Assembly: GCA_028278525.1 (NCBI GenBank)
Contig: JANQEE010000020.1
Location: forward strand, 1 to 64,000
DNA from: Minwuiaceae bacterium
GTDB taxonomy: Bacteria; Pseudomonadota; Alphaproteobacteria; Minwuiales; Minwuiaceae
Length of the DNA: 64,000 nt
Reading direction: 5' to 3'
A program made the translations under genes and the position numbers. Positions 26,302-43,549 of the stretch are shown here, one piece after another; within the stretch, counting starts at the first letter, position 1; every line of letters begins with the position of its first letter. The notes under the pieces are model-generated. The model did not search any database. It was given only the letters and a program-made list of their open reading frames with translations, and was not told the origin of the DNA.

Positions 26302-28236
26302 ATGATCAGACGGATAACCTCTCCGGCTATTTGCATTGCCGCGTTCGCCGCGGTGGCGCCTTTCCCCGCAAACAGCCAGACAACACCGGTCTCAACCTTG
26401 CCGGAGATGGTGGTCACGGCGACGCGGCTGCCGACGCCGCTGGAACAGGTGGCGAGCTCCGTCACCGTGATCACCGCGGAAGACATCGCGCGCAACAATT
26501 ATCGAACGCTGCCGGAGGCCTTACGGACGGTGCCGGGCGTCGACGTCGTCTCCCTGGGGCCGAGCGGCGCGACCACCGCCGTCTTCGTGCGCGGCACCGA
26601 GTCGAACCACACGCTGGTGCTACTCGACGGCATCGAGATCAACGATCCCTCGACCGCGGACGGCGGGTTCGATTTCGCCAACATCATGCTGGAGGACGTG
26701 GAGCGTATCGAATTCCTGCGCGGATCGCAGAGCACGCTTTACGGGTCGGACGCGATCGGCGGCGTCGTCAATATCATCACCAAACGCGGCAAGGGCCCCA
26801 CCAGGGTCTCCGGACGGCTCGAAGGCGGCACGGACTCGACCTTTAACCAGGCCGCTTCGGTAAGTGGCGCCTACGAGAAAGTCGACTACCGCCTGAGCGT
26901 CGAGCGCCTTGATACCGAAGGCCAGTCCATCACGCCGAACCGCAACCGGCCGGACGGCGTCAATTCGGAGAAGGATGGGTTCGAGAACCTGTCGCTCGCG
27001 GCCAGGGGCGGCGTACAGATCACCGAGACCCTGCGCGCCAACGTCGTCACCCGCTATATCGACAGCGAGGTCGAGCTCGACCCCAGCCCTGAAGATCCCA
27101 ACGCGGAGCAGGAAACCGACCAGTTCTTCGGCCGGGTCGAGGTCGAGGCGACGCTGTTCGACGGCTTCTTCGACAACCGTCTCGGCGTCGGCTACACCGA
27201 CTACGACCGCCGGTTCAACAACCCCGCCGACGGCTTGTCCATGAATTTCGCCAACTCCACCTTCGAGGGGCGTAAGCTGAAATTCGACTGGCAAGGAGAC
27301 CTGTATCTCACGGAGACCCAAACACTGACGCTCGGCGCCGAGACGGAGAAGGAGGATGCCGACAGCCGCAGCACCTTTTCCTCCGGTTTCAGCTCGCGCA
27401 CCAACAACGACGTCCGCACCAGCGCCGGGTTCGCCCAGCTTCAGTCAAGCTTCTTCGACCGGCTGTTCAGCACACTCGGCCTCCGCGTCGACGCCCACGA
27501 CCGGTTCGGGACCGAAGTCACCGGCCGCGCCGCCGTCACCTATCTGCACCGCGAGACCGACACCAAACTGAAGGCCTCCTACGGCAACGGCTTCAAAGCG
27601 CCGTCGCTGGAGCAACTTTTCGGCGCCAGTTTCTTCGACCCGTTCGGCCAGACCTTCTCCGGCAACCCGGACCTGAACCCGGAGAGAAGCCATGCCGTCG
27701 AGGCCGGTTTCGAGCAGGCCCTGTGGGAGGACCGCCTGACGGTCGGCGGCACCTTCTTCTACATCGAAATCGACGACCTGATATCGTTCAACGATAGCTT
27801 CACCACGCTGGTCAACGTAGACGAGGCGAAAATCCACGGTATCGAAGCGTTTATCGCCATCCGCCCGCTGCCCGAATTGGGACTCCGCGTCGACTACACC
27901 TTCACCGAAACCGAGGATGAGGAAACTGGCGACAACCTGCTGCGCCGGCCGCGCCATAAGGCGAGCGTCAGCGCCGACCTTCAGGCGACCGAGAGCATCG
28001 ACCTGGCGGTCAACGTGATCTACACCGGCGGCCGTCTGGACATCGATTCCAACACCTTCGCGACGGTGTCGACGACGGACTACGCTCTGGTCAATGTCTC
28101 CGGCAGCTACCGCCTCGGCGAGACTTGGCGGTTCTTCGCGCGGATCGAAAACCTGTTCGACGAAAACTACGAACCGGCGGACGGCTTCAAAGGCCCGGGC
28201 ATCAGCGCGCTGGCCGGCGTCCGCGCGAGGTTCTAG
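26302..28236 (+). CDS. btuB: TonB-dependent outer-membrane cobalamin receptor BtuB
   Basis: A 644-residue beta-barrel receptor. The signal peptide covers about residues 1-27 (ending PANSQ). The TonB box region is PEMVVTATR. The plug domain contains LLDGIEINDPS and GSQSTLYGSDAIGGVVNIIT, typical of BtuB. The barrel ends in the C-terminal aromatic GVRARF. AGGAG precedes the ATG by 9 bases. It is controlled by the riboswitch upstream and heads a btuB-F-C-D-cobU operon. Length is normal. Confidence 0.93.
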   Translation: MIRRITSPAICIAAFAAVAPFPANSQTTPVSTLPEMVVTATRLPTPLEQVASSVTVITAEDIARNNYRTLPEALRTVPGVDVVSLGPSGATTAVFVRGTESNHTLVLLDGIEINDPSTADGGFDFANIMLEDVERIEFLRGSQSTLYGSDAIGGVVNIITKRGKGPTRVSGRLEGGTDSTFNQAASVSGAYEKVDYRLSVERLDTEGQSITPNRNRPDGVNSEKDGFENLSLAARGGVQITETLRANVVTRYIDSEVELDPSPEDPNAEQETDQFFGRVEVEATLFDGFFDNRLGVGYTDYDRRFNNPADGLSMNFANSTFEGRKLKFDWQGDLYLTETQTLTLGAETEKEDADSRSTFSSGFSSRTNNDVRTSAGFAQLQSSFFDRLFSTLGLRVDAHDRFGTEVTGRAAVTYLHRETDTKLKASYGNGFKAPSLEQLFGASFFDPFGQTFSGNPDLNPERSHAVEAGFEQALWEDRLTVGGTFFYIEIDDLISFNDSFTTLVNVDEAKIHGIEAFIAIRPLPELGLRVDYTFTETEDEETGDNLLRRPRHKASVSADLQATESIDLAVNVIYTGGRLDIDSNTFATVSTTDYALVNVSGSYRLGETWRFFARIENLFDENYEPADGFKGPGISALAGVRARF

Positions 28237-28239
28237 GCG

Positions 28240-29082
28240 ATGCGGCCGGGCGGCGCCATCAGCTGGGCGGTTCACTGCGCGATGGGGCTTGCCCTCGCGC
28301 TCTCGCTTCTCGTCCAGCCGGGCGCCGCCCGACCGAACCGCATCGTCTCGCTCAACATGTGCGCCGACCAGTTCGTGCTGATGCTGGCGGATCCGGCGGA
28401 CATCGTCGCGCTCAGCCACTTCTCGAAGAGCGCGGAACGCTCCTATATGGCCGAAGCCGCCGAGCCGTTCCCGATTACCCACGGCCGGATTGAGCATATC
28501 CTGGCCCTGGCGCCGGACCTGGTGCTGACCGGCCCGTTTACCACCGCTACCGTCGGCGCCATGCTGAAACGCACCGGCGTCGCGACCCACGAAGTGCCCG
28601 TCGTCAATAGCCTAGCCGAAATCCGCACTGTTACCCGGACGACCGCTGCGGCGCTCGGCCATCCTGAACGGGGCGAGCGGCTGGTCGCCGAGATGGATCA
28701 CCAACTCGCGACGCTCAAGCCGCGGCCCGGTGCCAGACCGCTCGCCGCGGCATTCGAAGCAAACGCCATCGCCGTGGGCGGCGGCACCCTCATCGACGAT
28801 GTGCTGAATATTGCGGGTTTCGACAACATGGCGACGAAGCTCGGCATGACCGGCTACGCCTATCTCCCGTTGGAAAAGCTGATCGCCGCCCGGCCCGAAT
28901 TCCTTGTCGTCGGCGTCGTCGACCGACGCTACCCCTCGCTCGGCCAACAATTGCTCGACCATCCGGCGCTAAGCCGCGGCGTCAGGCCGTGGCGCACCGT
29001 CACCGTGCCCGGCCGGCTTTGGGTCTGCGGCACGCCGAAAGTAACCGAGGCCGTGCGGCTGCTGACGGAAGCCCGGCGATGA
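28240..29082 (+). CDS. btuF: Periplasmic cobalamin-binding protein BtuF-like
   Basis: A 280-residue helical-backbone (TroA/BtuF) binding protein. Signal sequence residues about 1-30 (ALALSLLVQPGAA). PNRIVSLNMCADQFVLMLADP and ILALAPDLVLTGPF are family marks. Starts 3 bases after btuB; its stop overlaps the permease start by 4 bases. Binds cobalamin in the periplasm and hands it to BtuC/BtuD. Confidence 0.9.
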   Translation: MRPGGAISWAVHCAMGLALALSLLVQPGAARPNRIVSLNMCADQFVLMLADPADIVALSHFSKSAERSYMAEAAEPFPITHGRIEHILALAPDLVLTGPFTTATVGAMLKRTGVATHEVPVVNSLAEIRTVTRTTAAALGHPERGERLVAEMDHQLATLKPRPGARPLAAAFEANAIAVGGGTLIDDVLNIAGFDNMATKLGMTGYAYLPLEKLIAARPEFLVVGVVDRRYPSLGQQLLDHPALSRGVRPWRTVTVPGRLWVCGTPKVTEAVRLLTEARR

Positions 29083-30071
29083 ACGCGTCGCGCTGGCTGA
29101 TCGCCGTCCTCGCCGGACTGGTCGCGCTACTGTTCGTCGGCTCGCTCGCGGTCGGTCCGGAGATGTTTCCGTTGCCTACAGCGCTCCGCGACCTCACGGC
29201 CGGCAATACTTCCATCGCGGCTATCGTCCTGGTCGAGATCCGCCTGCCGAGGGCCGTGCTCGGCCTGATCGTCGGCGCGACGCTCGGACTGACCGGTGCA
29301 GTGCTGCAGGGCCTTTTACGCAACCCGCTGGCGGAGCCGGGCCTGATCGGCATTTCCAACGCCGCCGGGCTCGGCGCGGTCACCGTGTTCTATCTCGGTC
29401 TCGGATCGGCGTTCGCGCTCGCCGTGCCGGTCGGCGGTATTGCCGGCGCCATTGTCGCCGTCGGTGTCGTGTTCCTGCTCGCCGGCCGCGACGCCAGCGT
29501 GCTGACCCTAGTCCTGGCCGGGGTGGCGATTGGTAGCTTCTGCTCTGCGCTGACCGCCCTGATCCTGAACTTCTCGCCCAACCCCTTCGCCGCGCTGGAG
29601 ATCGTGTTCTGGCTGCTCGGCTCCCTCAGCGACCGCAGCCTCGACCACGTCTATCTTGCCGCGCCGCTGATCCTGATCGGCTGGCTGCTGATGGCCGGCG
29701 TCGGCCGCCCGCTCGACGCGCTCACACTCGGCGAGGACACGGCCCAGTCCCTCGGCATCAATCTCCGACAGCTTCGCGCCCGCATCATCGTCGGCACGGC
29801 GCTGGCGGTCGGCCCGGCGGTCGCGGTCACCGGCGGCATCGCCTTCGTCGGGCTGGTCGTGCCGCATCTGCTGCGGCCGTTGGTCGGCTACCAACCGAGC
29901 CGGCTGCTGCCGGTCAGCGCGCTCGGCGGCGCCGCACTGCTGCTCGCCGCCGACATCGCCGTCCGCCTGCTGGCCCGCGGCCCGGAGCTGAAACTCGGCG
30001 TGCTGACCGCCCTGATCGGCGCGCCATTCTTCCTCTACCTGATCCTGAAGACGCGGAGCGCAATGCGATGA
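29079..30071 (+). CDS. btuC: Cobalamin ABC transporter permease BtuC-like
   Basis: A 330-residue inner-membrane permease with about ten helices. LPRAVLGLIVGATLGLTGAV and QGLLRNPLAEPGLIGIS are the FecCD/BtuC hallmarks. The GGIAFVGLVVPHLLRPLVG motif is the coupling region. Start ATG 29079 is part of an ATGA overlap with btuF; an upstream in-frame start at 28989 would lie inside btuF and is not needed. Confidence 0.92.
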   Translation: MNASRWLIAVLAGLVALLFVGSLAVGPEMFPLPTALRDLTAGNTSIAAIVLVEIRLPRAVLGLIVGATLGLTGAVLQGLLRNPLAEPGLIGISNAAGLGAVTVFYLGLGSAFALAVPVGGIAGAIVAVGVVFLLAGRDASVLTLVLAGVAIGSFCSALTALILNFSPNPFAALEIVFWLLGSLSDRSLDHVYLAAPLILIGWLLMAGVGRPLDALTLGEDTAQSLGINLRQLRARIIVGTALAVGPAVAVTGGIAFVGLVVPHLLRPLVGYQPSRLLPVSALGGAALLLAADIAVRLLARGPELKLGVLTALIGAPFFLYLILKTRSAMR

Positions 30072-30865
30072 CCCTGCTTCAGGCAACGGATATCCGCGTT
30101 CGGCTCGGGGACAACGACGTGCTCGCCGGTATCGACGTCGGCCTGAAACCCGGCGAACTGGTGGGACTGATCGGCCCGAACGGAGCCGGCAAGACGACGC
30201 TGCTGCGTGTCCTGGCGCGGCTACTCGATCCCGATACCGGATCCCTCGTCTATGACGGCGCGCCCGTCGCCGGGATCGACCGGCGCGCTTTCGCCCGCGA
30301 GGTCGCCTATCTCGCCCAAAACGCGCCGCTGCACTGGCCGATCACGGTGCGCCGGCTGGTGGCGCTCGGCCGCATTCCCCGCCTCGGCCCCTGGACGCGG
30401 CCGACCCACGCCGACGCGGCGGCCATAGACACCGCGCTGGCGCAGGCCGACATCGCCGATCTGTCAGAACGCATCGTCACCACCCTGTCCGGCGGCGAAC
30501 GCCTGCGCACCCTGCTGGCCCGCGCCCTCGCGACCGAGCCCCGCGTCCTACTGGCCGACGAGCCGATTGCCGCCCTCGATCCCTACCATCAGCTCCACGT
30601 CATGCAGTTGCTGCGGGAACTGGCCGGCCGCGGCGGCGCGGTGATCGCCGTGCTGCACGACCTGACCTTGGCCGCGCGGTTCTGCGACCGCCTGGTCCTG
30701 TTGGACGGCGGCAAGATCGTCGCCGACGGCCCGCCTGACGCAGTACTCAACCCCGCCAACATCGAAACGGTCTACCGGATCGATGCCCATTTCGGCCGGG
30801 TCGGCGACCAGGCTTACGTCGTGCCCTGGACGCGCCGCGCCCCGCCGGGCGACGAACCATGCTAA
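30068..30865 (+). CDS. btuD: Cobalamin ABC transporter ATPase BtuD-like
   Basis: A 265-residue ATPase. Walker A is GPNGAGKTT, the Q-loop LAQN, the signature LSGGERLRTLLARAL, Walker [13 protein letters not shown], and the H-loop LHDLTLA. It overlaps btuC by 4 bases. The order btuF-C-D under a cobalamin riboswitch supports B12 or cobinamide rather than iron-siderophore uptake, which uses similar proteins. Confidence 0.91.
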   Translation: MTLLQATDIRVRLGDNDVLAGIDVGLKPGELVGLIGPNGAGKTTLLRVLARLLDPDTGSLVYDGAPVAGIDRRAFAREVAYLAQNAPLHWPITVRRLVALGRIPRLGPWTRPTHADAAAIDTALAQADIADLSERIVTTLSGGERLRTLLARALATEPRVLLADEPIAALDPYHQLHVMQLLRELAGRGGAVIAVLHDLTLAARFCDRLVLLDGGKIVADGPPDAVLNPANIETVYRIDAHFGRVGDQAYVVPWTRRAPPGDEPC

Positions 30866-30897
30866 ACCTCGCCCTCCCACTCGGACGCGAGGCCTGA

Positions 30898-31410
30898 ATG
30901 GCTCCGATCACCCTGGTCTTAGGTGGCGCCCGCTCCGGCAAAAGCGCCCACGCCGAACGTCTGGCGGCCGACGCGTCGCCACGCCGCGTCTACATCGCGA
31001 CCGCGCAGGCGTTGGACGACGAAATGGCGACACGCATCGCCGATCACAAATCGCGCCGGGATCTCAGTTGGCGGACGGTGGAAGCGCCGCTCGGCTTGAG
31101 CGACGCCATAAAGGCTGCGGCCACACCCGACCACGTCGTTCTGGTCGACTGCCTGACACTCTGGCTCAGCAACCTCCTGTTGGCGGAACATGACATCGAA
31201 AAGGAAGCCGACGGCCTGATTGCCACCCTAACAGACGCCGCTGGACCTTTGATCCTGGTCTCCAACGAAGTCGGCCTCGGCATCGTGCCGGACAACGCCC
31301 TGGCGCGTGCCTTCCGCGACCATGCCGGCCGGCTCAATCAACGCATCGCCGAAGCCGCCGACAAGGTTGTCTTCCTCGCCGCTGGCCTGCCGATGGTGCT
31401 GAAGGGCTAA
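30898..31410 (+). CDS. cobU: Adenosylcobinamide kinase/guanylyltransferase CobU/CobP
   Basis: A 170-residue bifunctional enzyme that phosphorylates adenosylcobinamide and attaches GMP in the lower-ligand branch of B12 synthesis. P-loop GGARSGKS at residues 8-15. RVYIATAQALDDEMATRIADHK holds the guanylylated His region. VLVDCLTLWLSNLL and VSNEVGLGIVP are diagnostic. GAGG before the ATG. Position after btuD suggests salvage of imported cobinamide. Confidence 0.93.
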   Translation: MAPITLVLGGARSGKSAHAERLAADASPRRVYIATAQALDDEMATRIADHKSRRDLSWRTVEAPLGLSDAIKAAATPDHVVLVDCLTLWLSNLLLAEHDIEKEADGLIATLTDAAGPLILVSNEVGLGIVPDNALARAFRDHAGRLNQRIAEAADKVVFLAAGLPMVLKG

Positions 31411-31544: not shown

Positions 31545-32276
31545 TCACGCCCAGCCGCCGGCGAACGGCAGGACGTGGCCGGTGATGAAGTCCGCGCCGG
31601 GTGAGGCGAGGAAAGCGATGGTCGCGGCCGCCTCCTGCGGCTTGCCCAGCCGGCCGAGCGGGATGTTCTTGACGATCTTCGCCTTGGCCTCCGGGTTGGC
31701 CAGCAGTTCGGCCGGGAAATAGGTCGGGCTCTCCACGAAGTTCGGCGCCAGGGCGTTGACCTGGATGTTGTGGCGCGCGACCTCCTTGGCCAGCGACAGG
31801 GTCAGTGCGTTGGTCGCGCCGCGGCCGGTGACGTACATGGAATAGTTCGGCAGTCCGTGGAACGGCGCCGCCGAAGTCACGAAGATGATCTTTCCCGACT
31901 GCCGCTCCCGCATCCCCGGCAGCACCGCCTGGGCCAGGGCGAACGGCTGAACGACCAGCGCCTCCAGGGTGCGCCGCATGTCCTCCAGGTCCGCTTCCTC
32001 GACCGACGCCCGCAGCGCGGGGAAGGCATCGTTGTTGACCAGCACGTCGACCCGGCCGTAGCGCTCGGTCATGTCGGCCAGCAGGTCGGCCGGCGACTGT
32101 TTATCCGTCGTCTCGACGCCCGGCCGCTCGGCGATGAACGCCTCGCGCGCTGTCGGGTCGACGAAGCTCTCGTCGTGGCAGACCACGCGGGCGCCCTGCG
32201 CCGCCATCTCCTCTGCGGCGGGCCCGCCGACGAAGTGGGTCGCGTGGGTAATCAGAACGATCCTGTTGTCGAGCAT
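31545..32276 (-). CDS. Halohydrin dehalogenase-like short-chain dehydrogenase relative
   Basis: A 243-residue Rossmann-fold protein that lacks the normal SDR features. The NAD-binding T/S-G-x3-G-x-G is replaced by T10-x4-F15-x-G17 (THATHFVG), and the catalytic triad reads S135-x12-Y148-x3-R152 instead of S-Y-K. Both are the published signature of halohydrin (haloalcohol) dehalogenases, which convert vicinal haloalcohols to epoxides without a cofactor. VCHDESF and PFALAQAVLPGM also resemble HheC-type enzymes (ACHDESF, PFALVNAV). Second gene of an operon with an acyl-CoA-dehydrogenase-fold flavoprotein, 2 bases downstream of it. A B12-type MITE lies next to its 3-prime end. Confidence 0.8.
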   Translation of the reverse strand: MLDNRIVLITHATHFVGGPAAEEMAAQGARVVCHDESFVDPTAREAFIAERPGVETTDKQSPADLLADMTERYGRVDVLVNNDAFPALRASVEEADLEDMRRTLEALVVQPFALAQAVLPGMRERQSGKIIFVTSAAPFHGLPNYSMYVTGRGATNALTLSLAKEVARHNIQVNALAPNFVESPTYFPAELLANPEAKAKIVKNIPLGRLGKPQEAAATIAFLASPGADFITGHVLPFAGGWA

Positions 32277-32278
32277 GG

Positions 32279-33451
32279 TCAGAGCATCGCCGTATCCGTG
32301 TCGAGGCCGAGCAGCAGCCTACCGGTCAATTCAAAGGTGGGCGGCGACACCATCATGTGCTGGGTCGCCACATGCACGTCGCGGAAACAGCGCTGCAGCG
32401 GCGATGTCCGAAACACGGCGCTGCCGCCGCCCGCGTTGTACATCAGGTCGACGGCGCCGGCCGCGGCCCGCACCGCATGGCTCGCCGCCAGCCGAAGGTC
32501 GGTCCGCGCCGCCACGCTTATCTCGCCCGCGCCGGCGGCGCTGTCCCACGCTGCTGCCGTCGCTTCGAACAGGAAGGCGCGGGCCGAGCGCAGCATCGCT
32601 TCCGCCTCCGCCAGGTCGGACTGCACGCGGCTCCGTTTGGCGAGCTTGGAGCGGCTGAGCGTCGGCGTCTTGGCCTGCGCCAAATCGATCAATTCGTCGA
32701 TCGACCGCCGCGCGATGCCGAGCGTCACCGCCGCGATCCCCATCGCCAGCAGGCCGAAGATCGGAAACTTGTAGAGCGGCCCGTCCGAGCGCGGCCGGTC
32801 GGTGACAAGCGAGACCGAACGTTCCGCGGGCACGAACCGGTTGGCGACGGCCATGTCGTGACTGCCGGTGCCGCAGAGGCCGGCTGCCTGCCAAGTATCG
32901 ACGATCTCCACCTGGTCGGCCGGAAACAACATCATCCGCGAGTCCGGCATGCCGTTTTCCAACAGCCTCGGCTTGCCGTCGTCAAGGATGACCGAGCCGC
33001 CCATCAGCCAGGCGCAGTTCTGGCTGCCGCTCGCCCATTGCCACCGGCCGCTGACCTCGTAGCCGCCGTCGACGGCCACGGCCTTGCCCATCGGCGCGAA
33101 CACGCCGCCGGTGATCGCGGCTGGATCGGCACCGTAGATCTCCCGCGCCGCCGTCTCCGGCAGGTAGGCGGCGGTCAGCCCGCTGGTCGCGCCAATCATC
33201 ATACACCAGCCCGCCGCGCCGTCGGCTTCAGCCACCGCCTCTATGGCCTTGAGCAGCGTCGCCGGGTCGGCCTCCGCGCCGCCCAGCGAAGCGGGCACCA
33301 GCAGGCGGAATAGACCGGCCTCGGCCATCTGCCGTGCCAGGTCGGCCGGCAATCGCCGCCCGGCCTCGATTTCGTCGGCCCGGTCTCGGATGGTCGGCGC
33401 CAGGGCGCGCGCGGCAGCAAGCGGTTCCGGCGGATGCGATTGAACGGTCAT
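32279..33451 (-). CDS. Acyl-CoA dehydrogenase-fold flavin monooxygenase (HsaA/DszC-like)
   Basis: A 390-residue protein with the ACAD-like N-terminal helical domain (EAGLFRLLVPASLGGAEADP), a middle beta domain (YEVSGRWQWASGSQNCAW) and a C-terminal helical domain. The beta-domain GRWQWASG motif and the absence of the dehydrogenase's catalytic Glu region suggest a group D flavin monooxygenase rather than a dehydrogenase; that is inference. Start at 33451 (MTVQSHPP); an ATG at 33472 is in frame. Stops 2 bases before the dehalogenase-like gene, so co-transcribed. Confidence 0.8.
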   Translation of the reverse strand: MTVQSHPPEPLAAARALAPTIRDRADEIEAGRRLPADLARQMAEAGLFRLLVPASLGGAEADPATLLKAIEAVAEADGAAGWCMMIGATSGLTAAYLPETAAREIYGADPAAITGGVFAPMGKAVAVDGGYEVSGRWQWASGSQNCAWLMGGSVILDDGKPRLLENGMPDSRMMLFPADQVEIVDTWQAAGLCGTGSHDMAVANRFVPAERSVSLVTDRPRSDGPLYKFPIFGLLAMGIAAVTLGIARRSIDELIDLAQAKTPTLSRSKLAKRSRVQSDLAEAEAMLRSARAFLFEATAAAWDSAAGAGEISVAARTDLRLAASHAVRAAAGAVDLMYNAGGGSAVFRTSPLQRCFRDVHVATQHMMVSPPTFELTGRLLLGLDTDTAML

Positions 33452-33549
33452 GCAGCCATCTTCGCCCACCACCGGACGGCGGACAAGCCGTTGTCAGAAT
33501 CGGACGCTCGGTCGATGATGGTCCGACTCAACGGGTAAGGAATCGTCGT

Positions 33550-34356
33550 TTGGAAAGCGTCATTCGCTTGGTGGTGATCGCCGCGGCCGGCTATCTGGTG
33601 ATCCTCTGTCTGATGTTCGCCTTTCAACGTTCGCTGCTCTATTTCCCGGGTGGCACGTTGCCGGGCCCGGCGATGGCCGGCGTTCCCGACATGGCCCCGG
33701 TGACGCTGAACACGGCCGATGGCCTCGCGCTCACGGCCTGGTACAAGGCGCCGCCGCCGGGCCGGCCGGTAATCGTCCTGTTCCACGGCAATGCCGGCAC
33801 CATCGCCAACCGCGCCTTCAAGGCGCGCTTTCTGATCGATGCCGGCTACGGCATGCTGCTGGCATCGTACCGCGGCTACGGCGGCAATCCCGGCAAACCG
33901 ACGGAAGAGGGGCTCTACGCCGACGGCCGCGCCGCGCTCGCCTTCCTGGCGGAGCAGGGCATTGTCGCCGACCAACTCGTCCTGTTCGGCGAATCCCTCG
34001 GCAGCGGCGTCGCCGTCCAGCTCGCCACGGAAACCGAAATCGCCGCCCTTGTCCTGGAGGCGCCGCTCACCTCGGTGCCGGACGTCGCGGCCGCGCATTA
34101 TTTCTATCTGCCGGTCCGGCCGCTGGCCAAGGACCGCTTCGAGTCGGTCGACAAGATCGGCAAGGTCCGCGCGCCGATCCTGGTCTTCCAGGGCGAGAAG
34201 GATGAGGTGGTGCCGGTCCGCTTCGGCAAGGCGCTGTTCGAGGCCGCGCCGGAACCGAAGAAAAGCGTCTTCCTGCCCAACGCCCGGCACAACGACCTCT
34301 ACAATCATGGCGCCGCCGAGATCGTGCTCAAGTTCCTGAAGGATACGTTTCCCTAA
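33550..34356 (+). CDS. Membrane-anchored alpha/beta-hydrolase (BEM46/ABHD13-like)
   Basis: About 268 residues. One N-terminal membrane helix (VVIAAAGYLVILCLMF) is followed by an alpha/beta-hydrolase domain: oxyanion FHGNAGTIANR, nucleophile Ser in LFGESLGSGVAVQLA, Asp in FQGEKDEVVPV and a His in NARHNDLYNHG. I choose a TTG start at 33550 with AAGGA 8 bases upstream, since no ATG/GTG fits; the frame is open further upstream. The stop overlaps the convergent IscU-like gene by 4 bases. Confidence 0.82.
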   Translation: MESVIRLVVIAAAGYLVILCLMFAFQRSLLYFPGGTLPGPAMAGVPDMAPVTLNTADGLALTAWYKAPPPGRPVIVLFHGNAGTIANRAFKARFLIDAGYGMLLASYRGYGGNPGKPTEEGLYADGRAALAFLAEQGIVADQLVLFGESLGSGVAVQLATETEIAALVLEAPLTSVPDVAAAHYFYLPVRPLAKDRFESVDKIGKVRAPILVFQGEKDEVVPVRFGKALFEAAPEPKKSVFLPNARHNDLYNHGAAEIVLKFLKDTFP

Positions 34357-34781
34357 GCGTCCGCGTCCCGCGCCGCCTTCAGCAGGGCGCGAAACGGCAG
34401 CATCACGCATTCGTGCCGGCTTTTCACCTCGCGCACCGGATCGAAGCTCGCGTAATCGGCCCAGTCGCCGTCCGGCGCGGCGCCGTCCTGCTTCAGCATC
34501 GCTTCGACCGTTGTTTCCAGATCCTGCAGCTCGTCCACCGTGCGGCCCGGCGCCTGTTTGCCGAGGATCGAGGCCGATGCCTGGCACAGCATGCAGGCCT
34601 TGGCCTCGTGGCCGATCGCAGCCACCCGGTCGCCGTCCAGCTTCACGTCCAAGGTAATGCGGTCGCCGCAATAGGGGTTGTTGACCCGGACGGAGCCGTC
34701 CGGGTTATCCAGCCGGCCCGCGCCGGTCGCCCGCGCGGCCAGTTTCAACAGGTCTTTCTGGTAGATATCGGCAACCGTCAC
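34353..34781 (-). CDS. IscU/SufU/NifU-N-type iron-sulfur scaffold
   Basis: A 142-residue scaffold for [Fe-S] assembly. The three ligand cysteines are in NPYCGD, ACMLCQAS and RHECVMLPF, with the Asp following the first Cys. Last gene of the cox cluster, sharing a 4-base overlap with the molybdopterin/cytidylyltransferase gene. CoxS needs two [2Fe-2S] clusters, so a cluster-dedicated scaffold is reasonable. General housekeeping use is equally possible. Confidence 0.88.
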   Translation of the reverse strand: MTVADIYQKDLLKLAARATGAGRLDNPDGSVRVNNPYCGDRITLDVKLDGDRVAAIGHEAKACMLCQASASILGKQAPGRTVDELQDLETTVEAMLKQDGAAPDGDWADYASFDPVREVKSRHECVMLPFRALLKAARDADA

Positions 34782-36412
34782 GGCTTACTTACTCCGGCGT
34801 CTCGTTTCAACTCGCTTAAGGCCTCCGGCGTGTCCACGTCGACGAAAATCGCATCGTCGTCGATCGCCACTTCATAGACCGCTTCGCCGTACTCGCCAAT
34901 CAGGTGCTTGGCGCCGACATCGCCGGCGACGCCGCGCATCTCGTCGAAGAACCGTTCCGCGAACAGCACCGGGTTGCCGCGCTTGCCGTCCTTGATCGGC
35001 ACGCAGATGGCGCGGCCCTCGACCGGATTGAAGGCCGCGATCAGCTTGTCGATATGCGCCGGCTTGATGCGCGGCATATCGCCAAGCGTCACCAGCGCGC
35101 CGTCGGTGGCCGCGGGCAGGGCGTCCAGCCCGGCGCGGAGCGACGTGCTGAGCCCGGTCGCGAAGTCGGGATTGTGCACGAATGTCACGTCGCGCTCTTT
35201 AAGCGCCGTCTCCACAGCCTCGCGCTCATGCCCGGTGACCACTACCACCGGTCGCGCCTGGCTTGCCGTTACCGCGTCGACCACGCGGGCTAGCATCGCG
35301 GTGCCGTCGATCTCGGCGAGCAGCTTGTTGGCCTTGCCCATGCGCCGAGACTGCCCGGCGGCCAGCACCACGGCGCCGATGTTCGGGACCCGCGGTGACA
35401 CCGGCGCCTCCTTGCCGTCGCGCGGCTGAGGCCGGCTGACGATCTCTTTCAACAGCCCGCCGCCGCCCATCAGCATGATGTCCTCCGGCCCGACCGCAAC
35501 CCCGGCCAGCAGACGCCGCAACACCCAGTCGAACCCGTTCAGTTTCGGCGACCGCGCGCAACCCGGCGTGCCGATAACCGGCGAACCGTCCAGCCGCCCG
35601 AGAAGCAGCAGGTTGCCCGGATCGACCGGCATGCCGAAATGCTCGACCGTGCCGCCCGCCGCCTCGATCCCAGCCGGGATCACGTCGCGCCGGTCGGTAA
35701 TCGCCGACGCGCCGAAGATCAGGATCGGCTTGCTGCCCTTACCGCGCAGCTCGGTCACCGCCTCGGCCACTGCGTCCTCATGATGGTCGCACCGGATCTC
35801 GGCGGCCAAGTGGCTGCCCAGTGCGTCGAGCCGCGTCTTCACCGTGGCCACGGTCTTGTCGATCACACTTTCCTTGGTCTCCGGCAGGCGCGTCAGGATC
35901 AGCCCCACATCGTGCGCGGCGAACGGCGCGACCCGAACAACCGGTTCCGCACCGGCCACAGCAACGCTTTGTTCCACCACCGCGCGTGGCGCCGCGAACG
36001 GGATCACCTTAACCGTCGCCAACATCTGCCCTGGCTCCACGGCTTCGAAATCCGGCACGGTGGCGATAGTCATGGATTCGTCGATCAGGTTGATGCGGTC
36101 GATCCGCGCACGGTCGATCACGGCCAGCCCGGCGACGTCCGCGTACAGATTGCAGCGGCCGGTAAAGGCGGCGTTGGTCCGCGCACCCGGTCCCCGGCAG
36201 GCGTCGGCCACGGTCTGTGCAGCGACATCCTCGGCCACGTCGTCCGCCTCCAGCCGCGCCGCCATCACGTCCGTCTGGCCGTCGGCGGTCAAAAGGGCAA
36301 CATCCGCCGCGCTTAAGGCATGGCCCTTTTTGAAGCGCCGTCCCGGCACCGCGACGCTGTGCGCCAGGATCGCGCCGACGGCATCGGCGACCGGAATACG
36401 GCCGAACTTCAC
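34778..36412 (-). CDS. Molybdopterin-binding / MocA-like cytidylyltransferase fusion
   Basis: A 544-residue two-domain protein. Residues about 1-335 form a MoeA/MogA-like molybdopterin-binding region (ILIFGASAITDRRDVIPAGI, LMGGGGLLKEI). Residues about 340-544 are a MobA/MocA nucleotidyltransferase with LAAGQSRRMGKANKL and GDMPRIKPAHI. CO-dehydrogenase-type enzymes carry the cytosine dinucleotide form of molybdopterin, so CTP transfer is the probable reaction. It overlaps the xdhC-type gene by 4 bases. The fusion matches a form known in alphaproteobacteria. Confidence 0.87.
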   Translation of the reverse strand: MKFGRIPVADAVGAILAHSVAVPGRRFKKGHALSAADVALLTADGQTDVMAARLEADDVAEDVAAQTVADACRGPGARTNAAFTGRCNLYADVAGLAVIDRARIDRINLIDESMTIATVPDFEAVEPGQMLATVKVIPFAAPRAVVEQSVAVAGAEPVVRVAPFAAHDVGLILTRLPETKESVIDKTVATVKTRLDALGSHLAAEIRCDHHEDAVAEAVTELRGKGSKPILIFGASAITDRRDVIPAGIEAAGGTVEHFGMPVDPGNLLLLGRLDGSPVIGTPGCARSPKLNGFDWVLRRLLAGVAVGPEDIMLMGGGGLLKEIVSRPQPRDGKEAPVSPRVPNIGAVVLAAGQSRRMGKANKLLAEIDGTAMLARVVDAVTASQARPVVVVTGHEREAVETALKERDVTFVHNPDFATGLSTSLRAGLDALPAATDGALVTLGDMPRIKPAHIDKLIAAFNPVEGRAICVPIKDGKRGNPVLFAERFFDEMRGVAGDVGAKHLIGEYGEAVYEVAIDDDAIFVDVDTPEALSELKRDAGVSKP

Positions 36413-37095
36413 GCGGCCTCCTGCCTGAGGTCCTGAGTGATCTGGCCCATGATCGAAACGGCGATCTCCGCCGGCGACTTAGCGCCGATTGACAACCCGA
36501 TCGGGCCATGTATGCGCGCCATATCCTGTTCGGTAAAACCCAGCCTTTCCAGCCGCTGCAGGCGCTTCGCATGGGTCCGCGTGCTGCCAAGGGAGCCAAT
36601 ATAGAAGGCATCGGACTTCAACGCGGCGGCAAGCGCCGGGTCGTCCAGCTTCGGGTCGTGCGTCAGCGTCACCACGGCCGTCCGTCGGTCGGGTTGAAGC
36701 TGTTCCATCGCATCGTCCGGCCATTCGTCGACCAGGTCGACGCCGGGAAAGCGCTCCGCCGTCGCCCAGGCACCGCGCGGATCGACGACCACGACCTGGT
36801 ATCCCGCCAGTTTCGCCATCGGCGCCAGGGCCTGCGAGATATGCACCGCGCCGACTACGATCATGCGAAGCGGCGGGTTGAAGACGTTCAGAAAGACCGG
36901 TCCGTCTACCGTTTCGATGGTGGCCGGCTTGTCACTCGCGAACACCGCTCGTGCCCCGGTCTCGACCTCGGATTGTCCTTCCGCATCAGTCTGGTAGAGC
37001 AGTTTTTGATCGCCGGATGTCAGGTTCGTCGCCAACACGACGGGCCGCTTTGCAGCGCGGTCTTCGTTCAGTTGTTTAAGGACGTCGGGTTTCAT
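36409..37095 (-). CDS. XdhC/CoxI Rossmann-domain protein
   Basis: A 228-residue protein corresponding to the C-terminal half of XdhC. The Rossmann motif is VVGAVHISQALAPMAKLAG. VVTLTHDPKLDDPALAAALKS, YIGSLGSTRTH and IHGPIGLSIGAKSPAEIAVSIM are characteristic. XdhC factors bind and sulfurate molybdenum cofactor before insertion into xanthine dehydrogenase-type enzymes. The N-terminal half is a separate gene 6 bases upstream. Confidence 0.9.
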   Translation of the reverse strand: MKPDVLKQLNEDRAAKRPVVLATNLTSGDQKLLYQTDAEGQSEVETGARAVFASDKPATIETVDGPVFLNVFNPPLRMIVVGAVHISQALAPMAKLAGYQVVVVDPRGAWATAERFPGVDLVDEWPDDAMEQLQPDRRTAVVTLTHDPKLDDPALAAALKSDAFYIGSLGSTRTHAKRLQRLERLGFTEQDMARIHGPIGLSIGAKSPAEIAVSIMGQITQDLRQEAA

Positions 37096-37101
37096 ACCGG
37101 C

Positions 37102-37440
37102 TTAATCCACCCGCTCGACGAACACCTTGACCTTGCCACCGCAGGCGAGGCCGACTTCCCAGGCTTCGTCGTTGCTGACGCCGTATTCCAACAGCCGCGG
37201 CTTGCCGTCGCGCATCGCTTCCAGCGCTTCCTGCACCACCGCGCCCTCGATACAGCCCCCGCTCACCGAACCGATGAACTTGCCAGACCCGTTGACCGCC
37301 AACTGGCTACCCACCGGTCGCGGCGCGGACCCCCAGGTGGTGACGACGGTGGCAAGCGCCACGTCCTGGCCATTCTCTCGCCATTCGGCAGCGGTTTTCA
37401 GGATATCCATATCCCCACTGGCAACCTGTTCGGTGGTCAT
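37102..37440 (-). CDS. XdhC/CoxI N-terminal-domain protein
   Basis: A 112-residue protein equal to the XdhC N-terminal domain. ATVVTTWGSAPRPVGSQLAV and GSVSGGCIEGAV with GLACGGKVKVF hold the conserved cysteines thought to take part in cofactor binding. XdhC is thus split over two adjacent genes. It overlaps the coxE gene by 4 bases. Confidence 0.9.
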   Translation of the reverse strand: MTTEQVASGDMDILKTAAEWRENGQDVALATVVTTWGSAPRPVGSQLAVNGSGKFIGSVSGGCIEGAVVQEALEAMRDGKPRLLEYGVSNDEAWEVGLACGGKVKVFVERVD

Positions 37441-38651
37441 GCTGCGGTCTCCTTGAACATGCTGCGCGGCTCCTCCGCGCGCGGGGCAGGCCGACCCAGG
37501 GCTTCGGCCAATTCCGTCAGACTATCCAGGTTATGGACCGGGCGGAATTCGTCAACATGCGGGAGGATGGCCCGTATCCCCATAGATTTGGGTTCGAACC
37601 CTTCGAAACGCAACAGCGGGTTGAGCCAGATCAGCCGCCGGCAGGACTTATGCAGCCGTTCCATCTCGGCTTCCAGCCCCGCGCCCGCGTCCCGGTCGAG
37701 CCCATCGGTGATCAGCAGCAGCACCGCGCCCTGGCCCAGCACCCGGCGCGACCATTCGTTGTTGAACTGATGCAATGTCGCGCCGATCCGCGTGCCGCCG
37801 GACCAGTCCTCGACCGCCTGGCCGATCTTGTCCAAGGCAATGTCGACATCCTTGTTGCGCAGATGGCGTGTGACGTTGGTCAGCCTGGTGCCGAACAGGA
37901 AGGTGTGCACCCGGTCGCGGTCGTTGGTCACCGCATGCAGGAAATGCAGCAGCATGCGCGAATAGCGGCTCATCGACCCGGAGATGTCGCATAGTACGAC
38001 CAACGGCGGATGACGCCGCTGCCGCGACCGATGCTGCAACGGGATTACGTCGCCGCCGGACCGCAGGCTGGCCCGCATGGTGCGCCGCATGTCGACCCGG
38101 CGGCCGGCCGGGTTCGGCACGAAGCGCCGCGTCTTCACCTCGACGATCGGCAAACGCAGGTTAGCGATCAGCCGCTTGGCCTTGGCCACTTCGTCCGCCG
38201 ACATCGCCTCGAAATCCTTGCTCTGCAGCAGTTCACGGTCAGAGAACGTAAGGGTCGCCTCGATCTCGACTTCTTCCTTCTCCGGCTCTTTGCCGTCCTC
38301 GCCCTGGCCCGGCAGGATGGCATCGGCGACCCTTTGCAGCGTCTTCGGCCCCTCGGGAGACGTCTCCGGCACGCTCATCTGCGGCAGCATCATGGACATC
38401 ATCTTTTCCAGGATCTCCGGGTTGCGCCAGAAGATGTGGAATGCCTGATCGAACAGTTCGCGCTGGTCGCGCCGGTTGACGAAGACCGAATGCAGAGTCC
38501 AGTAGAAGTCGTCACGCCGCTTCAGGCCAGCCGTCTCGACGGCGCGGATCGCATCCAGCACCTTGCCCGGGCCGATGGGCAGCCCGGCGGCGCGCAGCGT
38601 GCGCGCGAAGTACAGGATATTCTGGGCAAACCTGCCGCGCCGTTCCGTCAT
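37437..38651 (-). CDS. coxE: CoxE-type von Willebrand factor A protein
   Basis: A 404-residue VWA protein. The metal-ion-dependent adhesion site is DISGSMS in VVLCDISGSMSRYSRM, and the second loop is WSGGTRIG. The N-terminal half is helical with DxxxR repeats. CoxE works with the MoxR-type CoxD ATPase in inserting the [CuSMoO2] cluster into CO dehydrogenase in the characterised system. It overlaps its neighbours by 4 bases on both sides. Confidence 0.9.
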   Translation of the reverse strand: MTERRGRFAQNILYFARTLRAAGLPIGPGKVLDAIRAVETAGLKRRDDFYWTLHSVFVNRRDQRELFDQAFHIFWRNPEILEKMMSMMLPQMSVPETSPEGPKTLQRVADAILPGQGEDGKEPEKEEVEIEATLTFSDRELLQSKDFEAMSADEVAKAKRLIANLRLPIVEVKTRRFVPNPAGRRVDMRRTMRASLRSGGDVIPLQHRSRQRRHPPLVVLCDISGSMSRYSRMLLHFLHAVTNDRDRVHTFLFGTRLTNVTRHLRNKDVDIALDKIGQAVEDWSGGTRIGATLHQFNNEWSRRVLGQGAVLLLITDGLDRDAGAGLEAEMERLHKSCRRLIWLNPLLRFEGFEPKSMGIRAILPHVDEFRPVHNLDSLTELAEALGRPAPRAEEPRSMFKETAA

Positions 38652-39358
38652 CCCGGTACCTCTGCCGTGTCGAGGATTTCGACCACAACCTTAAGGTCGC
38701 CATAGTCCGGCAGCACCTGGGTCGCACCGACCCCTCTAAGCTCTGCGGCCTTGTCGCCTTCCGCGATGCCGATGAAAGGCAAGGCCAAGTTGCGCGCCGT
38801 CACAACATCCCAGACGCCGTCTCCGATGGATACGACACGGTCGAATGAAGCGACGCCGTGCTCGTCGGCGGCCCGGGAGATGGCCGCGCCGACAATCTCT
38901 TCGCGCGAGGCGAACTCGTGGCCGAACGCGCCCGGCAGATGCCGGTGCACGATCCCGGCGACCTCCAACTTGAACCTGGCCGAGATGCCCCAACCGCCGG
39001 TCGCAAGCGCCACTGCCCAGCCAGCTTCCTCCAACAGATGCGCCAGGACCGCGGCGGCGCCCGGAACCGGCGCGAACGCCGCGGCGTCCGCCGCATGGGC
39101 GGCACGCAGACGCGCGACAAAGTCCTGTTGAATGGCCTCTATCTCCCGCTCCCTCGGCGGCCGTCCGGAAATCCGCTGAAAGATCTCCGCGTTGATGCAG
39201 CGGTCCGTCATGTGGGTGAAATCGCCCCAATGCCGGTCCACCGCCGCCGTGCCCAAACTGGCCGCATGCACCGCCCGGAAATTCACGTTGTCGACATGGT
39301 TGGTCCGGGTCAGCGTGCCATCGATATCGAACACCGCAAGACGGACGGGCGCCGACAT
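38648..39358 (-). CDS. HAD-superfamily hydrolase within the cox cluster
   Basis: A 236-residue haloacid-dehalogenase-fold phosphatase. The nucleophile motif is FDIDGTLT, motif II ALATGG, and motif IV SIGDGVWDVVTA. It belongs to the beta-phosphoglucomutase-like branch. It is tightly packed between coxD and coxE, with a 4-base overlap to the latter. Such a gene is not a known cox maturation factor, so its substrate is open. Confidence 0.88.
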   Translation of the reverse strand: MSAPVRLAVFDIDGTLTRTNHVDNVNFRAVHAASLGTAAVDRHWGDFTHMTDRCINAEIFQRISGRPPREREIEAIQQDFVARLRAAHAADAAAFAPVPGAAAVLAHLLEEAGWAVALATGGWGISARFKLEVAGIVHRHLPGAFGHEFASREEIVGAAISRAADEHGVASFDRVVSIGDGVWDVVTARNLALPFIGIAEGDKAAELRGVGATQVLPDYGDLKVVVEILDTAEVPG

Positions 39359-39361
39359 GGC

Positions 39362-40288
39362 TCAGCCCGCCGCCGCGGCCAGCTCCGCCTTCACCTGATC
39401 AATAATGCGCGCCGCTTCGCTGCCCTGCATCTGCGCGATGTCGTCCTGGTATTTCAACAGCACGCCGAGCGTGTTGTTGACCGTCTCCGGATCCAGGGTG
39501 ATCGCGTCCAACTGCGTCAGCGCCTTAGTCCAGTCGATGGTCTCGGCGACGCCGGGCAGCTTGAACAGGTCCACATTACGCAGTTCCTGCACGAAGCCGA
39601 CGATCTCCTGGCTGAGACGCTTGTCCGCCTCCGGCGCCTTGCGGGCCAGGATCTCCAACTCGCGCGCCGCGTCCGGATAGTCGACCCAGTGGTAGAGGCA
39701 GCGGCGTTTCAGCGCATCGTGGATCTCGCGGGTCCGGTTGGACGTGATCACCACGACCGGCGGCTCGGCTGCCTTGACCGTACCGATTTCCGGGATCGTG
39801 ATCTGGAAGTCCGACAAGACCTCCAGCAGATAGGCCTCGAACGCCTCGTCGGTCCGGTCCAGTTCGTCGATCAGCAGGACTGGCGCGCCGTGACCGTCGG
39901 ATTCCAGAGCCTGCATCAATGGCCGTTTGATCAGGAACTTTTCGGTGAAGATGTCCTGGCCCAGCCGGTCGCGGTCGGCCTGGCCCGCGGCCTCTGCCAT
40001 GCGGATCTCGATCATCTGGCGGGAATAGTTCCACTCGTACACGGCGGAAGCGACGTCCAGGCCCTCATAGCACTGCAGGCGCACCAGCGGTCGGTCCAGC
40101 GTATCGGCCAGCACCTTGGCGATTTCGGTCTTGCCGACGCCGGCCTCGCCCTCCAGGAACAGCGGCCGGCCCATGCCGAGCGACAGGTAGACCACGGTCG
40201 CCAGGCTGCGGTCGGCGACATAGTCGGCCTGACCCAGCAGGTCGGCTGTCTCGTCGATAGAGGCGGGCAGGGGTTTGGTTTGGCTCAT
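39362..40288 (-). CDS. coxD: CoxD-type MoxR AAA+ ATPase
   Basis: A 308-residue AAA+ ATPase. Walker A is EGEAGVGKTE, Walker B PVLLIDELDR, and the sensor region ITSNRTREIHDALKRRCLYHW. CoxD of Oligotropha is needed for the sulfuration step of the Cu/Mo cluster. It follows coxM with a hairpin in the 92-base gap. Confidence 0.92.
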   Translation of the reverse strand: MSQTKPLPASIDETADLLGQADYVADRSLATVVYLSLGMGRPLFLEGEAGVGKTEIAKVLADTLDRPLVRLQCYEGLDVASAVYEWNYSRQMIEIRMAEAAGQADRDRLGQDIFTEKFLIKRPLMQALESDGHGAPVLLIDELDRTDEAFEAYLLEVLSDFQITIPEIGTVKAAEPPVVVITSNRTREIHDALKRRCLYHWVDYPDAARELEILARKAPEADKRLSQEIVGFVQELRNVDLFKLPGVAETIDWTKALTQLDAITLDPETVNNTLGVLLKYQDDIAQMQGSEAARIIDQVKAELAAAAG

Positions 40289-40320
40289 GGACCTTATTTA
40301 TACATCTTTTTCAACAAACA

Positions 40321-40350
40321 ACCGGGGGGAGGCTTTGGCCTCCCCCCGGT
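40321..40350 (-). terminator. Hairpin between coxM and coxD
   Basis: Perfect 13-bp stem ACCGGGGGGAGGC / GCCTCCCCCCGGT with the loop TTTG. In the minus-strand direction it is followed by a T-rich tract (TTGTTTGTTG). It probably acts as a partial terminator or processing stem, lowering coxD-downstream expression relative to coxSLM. Confidence 0.65.
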
Positions 40351-40380
40351 GTCAGGTCGCCCTCGGTTGGGACGGGCTGT

Positions 40381-41172
40381 TCAGCCGCCGGCCTCCGCCA
40401 CCGCGCGGCGCGCCATCACGCCGACCAAGTGGGCGCGGTACGCCGCGGACCCATGGATATCGGCGTTCAAGCCGTCCGCCGACACCGAGATTCCCTCGAT
40501 CGCCGAAGCCCAGAAGTTACCGCCGAGCGCGCTTTCCATCTCGGCGACCCGGAACACGCTTGGGCCCGCGCCGGTCACGGCGACACGAACGCCGCCGCCG
40601 GTCTGCGCCACGAACACGCCGACCATGGCGTAACGGGACGCCGGGTTCGGGAACTTCATGTAGCCTGCCTTCTCCGGCACCGGGAACACCACCTTGGTGA
40701 CGATCTCGTCCTCGGCCAACGCGGTCTCGAACATACCGGTGAAGAAATTATCGGCCGCGATCTCGCGTTTGTTGGTGTGCACCGTGGCGCCCAACCCGAC
40801 CACCGCGGCCGGATAGTCCGCCGCCGGATCGTTGTTGGCGATCGACCCACCGATGGTACCCATATTGCGTACCTGCGGGTCCCCGATCCCCTCGGCCAGC
40901 TTGGCCAAGGCAGGAATGGCGCCCTTCACGTCGGCGGAGTCCGCGACCGCGGCATGCCGGGTCGTGGCGCCGATGCTGACGGAACCGCCGCCGGCGCTGA
41001 TCCCGCTCAACTCGGCGATGCCGCCGATGTCGATCACGGCACTCGGCATGGCAAGCCTTTGCTTCAGGGTCGGGATCAGGGTCTGACCGCCGGCCATCAG
41101 CGTCGCCTCGCCGGAGAGCATGGACGCCGCCTCGCTCAGGCTCGACGGGCGTTGATAGTCGAATTCATACAT
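40381..41172 (-). CDS. coxM: CoxM-type FAD subunit
   Basis: A 263-residue medium subunit of the molybdenum hydroxylase. FAD-binding motifs are LMAGGQTLIP and MGTIGGSIANNDPAADY. The C-terminal CO_deh_flav_C part ends YRAHLVGVMARRAV. The start ATG 41172 has GGGAGAG upstream; a frame extension to 41268 is not needed. It lies 13 bases after coxL in the usual S-L-M order. Confidence 0.92.
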   Translation of the reverse strand: MYEFDYQRPSSLSEAASMLSGEATLMAGGQTLIPTLKQRLAMPSAVIDIGGIAELSGISAGGGSVSIGATTRHAAVADSADVKGAIPALAKLAEGIGDPQVRNMGTIGGSIANNDPAADYPAAVVGLGATVHTNKREIAADNFFTGMFETALAEDEIVTKVVFPVPEKAGYMKFPNPASRYAMVGVFVAQTGGGVRVAVTGAGPSVFRVAEMESALGGNFWASAIEGISVSADGLNADIHGSAAYRAHLVGVMARRAVAEAGG

Positions 41173-41185
41173 CTTTCGCTCTCCC

Positions 41186-43549
<2,364 letters not shown>

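Follow-up and report, generated by a model that had tools for sequence, protein, structure and literature searches.

The locus and its predicted genes

Within the window (the whole stretch of 64,000 nucleotides that was analysed), an intact open reading frame of 243 codons, with an ATG start and no internal stops in its translation, occupies positions 31545-32276. It lies on the minus strand, which the original prediction had left unspecified, and very probably encodes a halohydrin dehalogenase (HHDH) rather than one of the short-chain dehydrogenases (SDRs) that it resembles. The gene, its diagnostic segments and its neighbors are as follows.

31545..32276, minus strand: probable HHDH gene of the A/C-type side, 243 amino acids, assigned from the open reading frame, motifs, PDB matches, tree, and model with fold search
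32226..32249, minus strand: motif 1, T10-H-A-T-H-F15-V-G17, which replaces the TGxxxGxG dinucleotide loop of SDRs; putative nucleophile (halide) pocket
31821..31874, minus strand: motif 2, S135-x12-Y148-x3-R152, catalytic triad by homology
31734..31745, minus strand: P178-N179-F180-V181, likely halide-pocket loop, where SDRs have P-G (column counts)
32279..33472, minus strand: flavoprotein of acyl-CoA-dehydrogenase fold in a 397-amino-acid frame, HsaA-like (oxygenase component of a group D flavin monooxygenase), assigned from family models
33334..34356, plus strand: divergent alpha/beta hydrolase with a G-E-S-L-G (serine) nucleophile motif; its true start is probably downstream of 33334
downstream of the HHDH gene and convergent with it, plus strand: cobU, assigned from family models
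34353-42274, minus strand: cox/xdhC/moeA-mobA/NifU-like maturation cluster, farther upstream of the HHDH gene

The published HHDH motifs are T-x4-F/Y-x-G and S-x12-Y-x3-R (PMC4989007), the first of which forms the nucleophile pocket where SDRs bind the dinucleotide (PMC4989007, PMC11976700). Residues T10, F15, G17, S135, Y148, and R152 are all found in the translation exactly as the original prediction described them. The segments VCHDESF (residues 32-38) and PFALAQAVL (residues 111-119), whose likeness to HheC had also been pointed out, are both present and align with HheC. The classical SDR features (TGxxxGxG loop and S-Y-K triad) do not occur in this protein, which carries F15 and R152 instead.

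Gene neighborhood and the upstream flavoprotein

The stop codon of the flavoprotein gene lies 2 bp before the start of the HHDH gene on the same strand, and the two probably form a two-gene operon which, if functional, would offer a handle on a natural role. The flavoprotein scored 213 bits against the NCBIfam model for HsaA (NF045629), below its curated cut-off of 450 bits, so that HsaA proper was rejected and the protein is regarded as related only.

A scan of named genome contigs yielded 201 confirmed relatives of the HHDH, and the best 80 of these 201 were taken for a comparison of gene neighborhoods with flanks of up to 10 kb. No conserved operon partner was found at these 80 named loci beyond close relatives; conservation of neighbors reaches the genus or family level only (Sneathiella, Reyranella, and Rhodobiaceae-like), and the neighbors include COQ9, hydantoinase B, sulfatase, and acyl-CoA dehydrogenase genes. 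Since HHDH neighbors at the best 80 of 201 loci are lineage-specific, gene context gives no general natural substrate. Among the genes beside the HHDH of the window, none could be recognised as a dehalogenase, an epoxide hydrolase, or a member of a haloacid pathway, and the nearby alpha/beta hydrolase (33334..34356) is not an obvious epoxide hydrolase.

Both in the window and at five Rhodobiaceae/Tepidicaulis-like loci (L076, L085, L087, L089, and L095), the cox/xdhC/moeA-mobA cluster is found upstream of the HHDH and shares its orientation. Because genomes of the window's own family retain this cluster without an HHDH, the linkage was attributed to neighborhood history and a functional tie between the two was set aside. 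On the other side of the HHDH, positions 26302-31410 of the plus strand encode a TonB-dependent receptor, a periplasmic binding protein, an ABC permease, an ATPase, and cobU (the permease and ATPase roles being read from sequence), which together resemble a gene cluster for the uptake and salvage of cobalamin.

Pairing with the flavoprotein is the sole distinctive feature of the HHDH locus, and among the loci examined it is seen in a single genome. It could indicate that the HHDH performs nucleophile exchange in a pathway begun by the HsaA-like flavoprotein, in which an epoxide or hydroxylated product would be formed and an anionic nucleophile then added or removed. The 2-bp spacing on a common strand and the resemblance to HsaA are consistent with such a pathway, as is the presence of an HHDH in 12/20 genomes with a flavoprotein match above 300 bits versus 43/385 genomes overall. 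It should be noted that these are raw counts, which include the window's own genome and ignore both relatedness and genome size, and the co-occurrence is only a lead. The pathway is nevertheless unlikely, as the two genes are adjacent in this genome alone: a flavoprotein of the window type occurs at none of the 80 HHDH loci (best 80 of 201), and no HHDH was found in the stretch surrounding the flavoprotein relatives of 17 other genomes, several of which adjoin enoyl-CoA hydratase or acyl-CoA dehydrogenase genes instead. If true, the HHDH-flavoprotein unit would represent a natural HHDH pathway in place of the assumed detoxification. At two further loci (L065, from Marivibrio, and L102) a classical acyl-CoA dehydrogenase lies directly upstream of the HHDH, and it belongs to a different subfamily from the flavoprotein of the window.

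Discrimination from short-chain dehydrogenases

Pfam and NCBIfam name solely generic SDR models for the protein, and because both report SDR models only, generic family libraries do not settle whether it is an HHDH or an SDR. In a direct comparison, 27 SDR paralogues encoded by the window's own genome served as the control set and 109 HHDH-like loci from genome searches as the test set. Neither HHDH motif occurs in any of the 27 SDR paralogues, and both motifs are present in 104 of the 109 HHDH-like loci; the motif pair is thus far above chance. The same contrast appears in column counts from a joint alignment of 98 relatives with the 27 SDR paralogues. Position 15 is F, W, or Y in 98/98 relatives and G in 27/27 SDRs, position 83 is D in 98/98 relatives and A in 24/27 SDRs, position 152 is R in 98/98 relatives and K in 24/27 SDRs, and position 179 is N in 98/98 relatives and G in 20/27 SDRs. 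In this alignment residues F15, D83, and N179 of the window protein match HHDH-type residues at would-be nucleophile-pocket positions. By homology to HheC, we take the loop P178-N179-F180-V181 to be part of the halide pocket.

Sequence searches of the PDB gave the highest score to the HHDH-like entry 6a41 (258 bits), followed by HheC entries (about 162-171 bits) and HheA/HheA2 (158-161 bits), with the best non-HHDH SDR at 114 bits; a profile built from 15 relatives returned the same top matches. Identity to the window protein in the joint alignment is 52% for 6a41, 40% for HheC, 39% for HheD2, 38% for HheA2, and 34% for HheB; no reference HHDH except 6a41 exceeds 41%, and the SDR paralogues range from 24 to 31%. 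The HheA2 and HheB query letters were compared with PDB entries 1zmo and 4zd6. One HheB residue differed, and there the PDB letter was used in the phylogenetic reconstruction (maximum likelihood, 132 proteins). All 27 SDR paralogues lie beyond a 100/100 branch from the HHDHs. One group (98/99 support) unites the window protein with 6a41, HheC, HheA2, and 98 further loci; HheB and two HheD2-like structures make up the opposing HHDH group, and a B/D-type HHDH was rejected on this grouping. The nearest relative of the window protein is L038 from a Rhodospirillales metagenome-assembled genome (65% identity), and 6a41 clusters with Reyranella loci. Because HheC and HheA2 sit on long branches whose exact join is unsure, and the HheE, HheF, and HheG types lie outside the tree, the sequence relationships assign the window protein to the A/C-type side of HHDHs with no finer subtype.

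The predicted structure points in the same direction. HHDHs are homotetramers; an AlphaFold2 model of the single subunit, based on a 15-sequence alignment, reached a mean pLDDT of 91 and a pTM of 0.90, and ranks 1-15 of a Foldseek search against the PDB were all HHDHs. VIA-align gave 6a41 as the best match (Z 35.6, rmsd 1.7 over 243 residues), with HheC at Z 32-33 and FabG-type SDRs at Z up to 32.2, within 1 of HheC and 3-4 of 6a41. The closeness of these scores arises because HHDHs and SDRs have the SDR-type Rossmann fold in common, and hence the modeled fold supports HHDH membership without deciding it.

If the protein were a normal NAD(P)-dependent SDR whose nucleotide loop is unusual, it would have this fold and the generic SDR assignments in Pfam and NCBIfam. 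However, the 25 best-scoring NCBIfam SDR models all stayed below their curated cut-offs, and four positions carry the residue found in HHDHs, with Phe for the central glycine of the nucleotide loop, Asp for the alanine of NNAG, Arg for the catalytic Lys, and PN for the PG loop. The check proposed with the original prediction, namely whether best matches and tree placement fall inside an NAD(P)-dependent SDR family, was also run: HHDHs rank at the top by sequence and by fold, and the SDRs split off at 100/100. Motifs and tree lead us to reject a dehydrogenase identity, which we consider highly improbable. The reading of the motifs as an HHDH signature thus gains support from their absence in the 27 SDR paralogues and from best matches and a tree that both point to HHDHs.

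Distribution and variants within the family

Matches at E<=1e-40 were found in 43/385 sampled genomes of Alphaproteobacteria (about one in nine). An even phylum-wide sample yielded matches in 2/398 genomes, both Alphaproteobacteria and one of them the window's own genome. The enzyme class, which had been called rare, is therefore rare across the phylum but not within Alphaproteobacteria. Eight other genomes of the same order contained no HHDH at E<=1e-45. The window HHDH sits in a large and diverse clade found chiefly in Alphaproteobacteria, and its gene belongs to a known enzyme family, in which it is unlisted but otherwise unremarkable. A plasmid collection gave a single distant match (38.8% identity), NZ_CP089591.1:6885-7607 from Microbacterium sp. 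J1-1 of activated sludge, which is annotated as a haloalcohol dehalogenase; an epoxide hydrolase family annotation also lies under the match.

Some HHDH-like proteins vary at motif 1, with Trp at the aromatic position in 6/98 or Ser at the Thr position in 3/98 (L014, L019, L020, and relatives; L025, L030, and L039). The published T-x4-F/Y-x-G pattern would miss these variants, which fall at positions described as highly conserved. Likewise, three small genomes of one genus contain tandem pairs of HHDH-like genes (L193:6647-8137, L194:7780-9249, and L195:6860-8337), in which one copy has S-x12-Y-x3-R and the other has Gln in place of Arg and has lost the motif-1 aromatic residue. Each pair possibly combines a catalytic with a degenerate subunit. 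Such degenerate copies, without the Arg and motif 1, provide a precedent for an HHDH paralogue that has lost catalysis or been repurposed and is retained for some other function, but every motif and pocket residue is intact in the window protein, for which this explanation is hardly credible.

Predicted mechanism and cellular role

Taken together, the evidence makes us highly confident that the gene encodes a cofactor-independent HHDH of the A/C-type side, one of a large alphaproteobacterial clade, its activity being predicted from sequence. In known HHDHs, Ser orients the substrate hydroxyl, which Tyr deprotonates with the help of Arg, and the halide exits into a pocket at the NAD(P) site of SDRs (PMC4989007). 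By homology, S135 of the window protein would hold the substrate hydroxyl and Y148, its pKa lowered by R152, would take the proton. The resulting alkoxide would displace the vicinal halide to form an epoxide, with the halide leaving into a pocket lined by T10-F15-G17 and P178-N179-F180 in place of the NAD(P) site. In the reverse reaction, an epoxide would be opened by halide, azide, cyanide, or nitrite. The epoxide product may be passed to hydrolases encoded elsewhere; two EHN-type epoxide hydrolases are present in the same genome, so such a product could be processed.

The natural role assumed for the HHDH family is the detoxification and degradation of haloalcohols (PMC11536340). Consistent with this assumption, the most likely role of the window HHDH, for which we see about an even chance, is that of a stand-alone degrading or detoxifying enzyme that removes natural or xenobiotic vicinal haloalcohols. 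HHDHs are sought-after biocatalysts, and their natural substrates are mostly assumed.

Comparison with known halohydrin dehalogenases

HheB and HheD2 (4zd6 and 7b73; 34% and 39% identity) have the HHDH triad in common with the window protein, but they form a separate clade (100/99), lack the CHDESF segment, and do not share D83. HheA and HheA2 of Arthrobacter and Corynebacterium (1zmo and 4z9f; 38% identity) have the same motifs and the same PNF pocket loop, yet sit on a long branch apart from the window protein in the tree. HheC of Agrobacterium radiobacter AD1 (1pwx and 1zmt; 40% identity) shares the triad, the nucleophile-pocket residues, and the CHDESF and PFAL segments. Its C-terminal extension with Trp249 is absent from the window protein, which ends in GGWA, and on this difference HheC proper was rejected. 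The closest known counterparts are 6a41 and HHDH-like proteins of Reyranella, which show the same motifs and fold (52% identity to 6a41 over the full length) and occupy another sub-branch of the alphaproteobacterial clade; a literature search found no published assay of 6a41, whose PDB label is just 'dehalogenase'. Active A-type HHDHs have been reported from Alphaproteobacteria, namely HheA3 of Parvibaculum lavamentivorans and HheA5 of Tistrella mobilis (PMC4989007), and, judging from their description there, these two enzymes probably fall into one clade with the relatives identified in this analysis.
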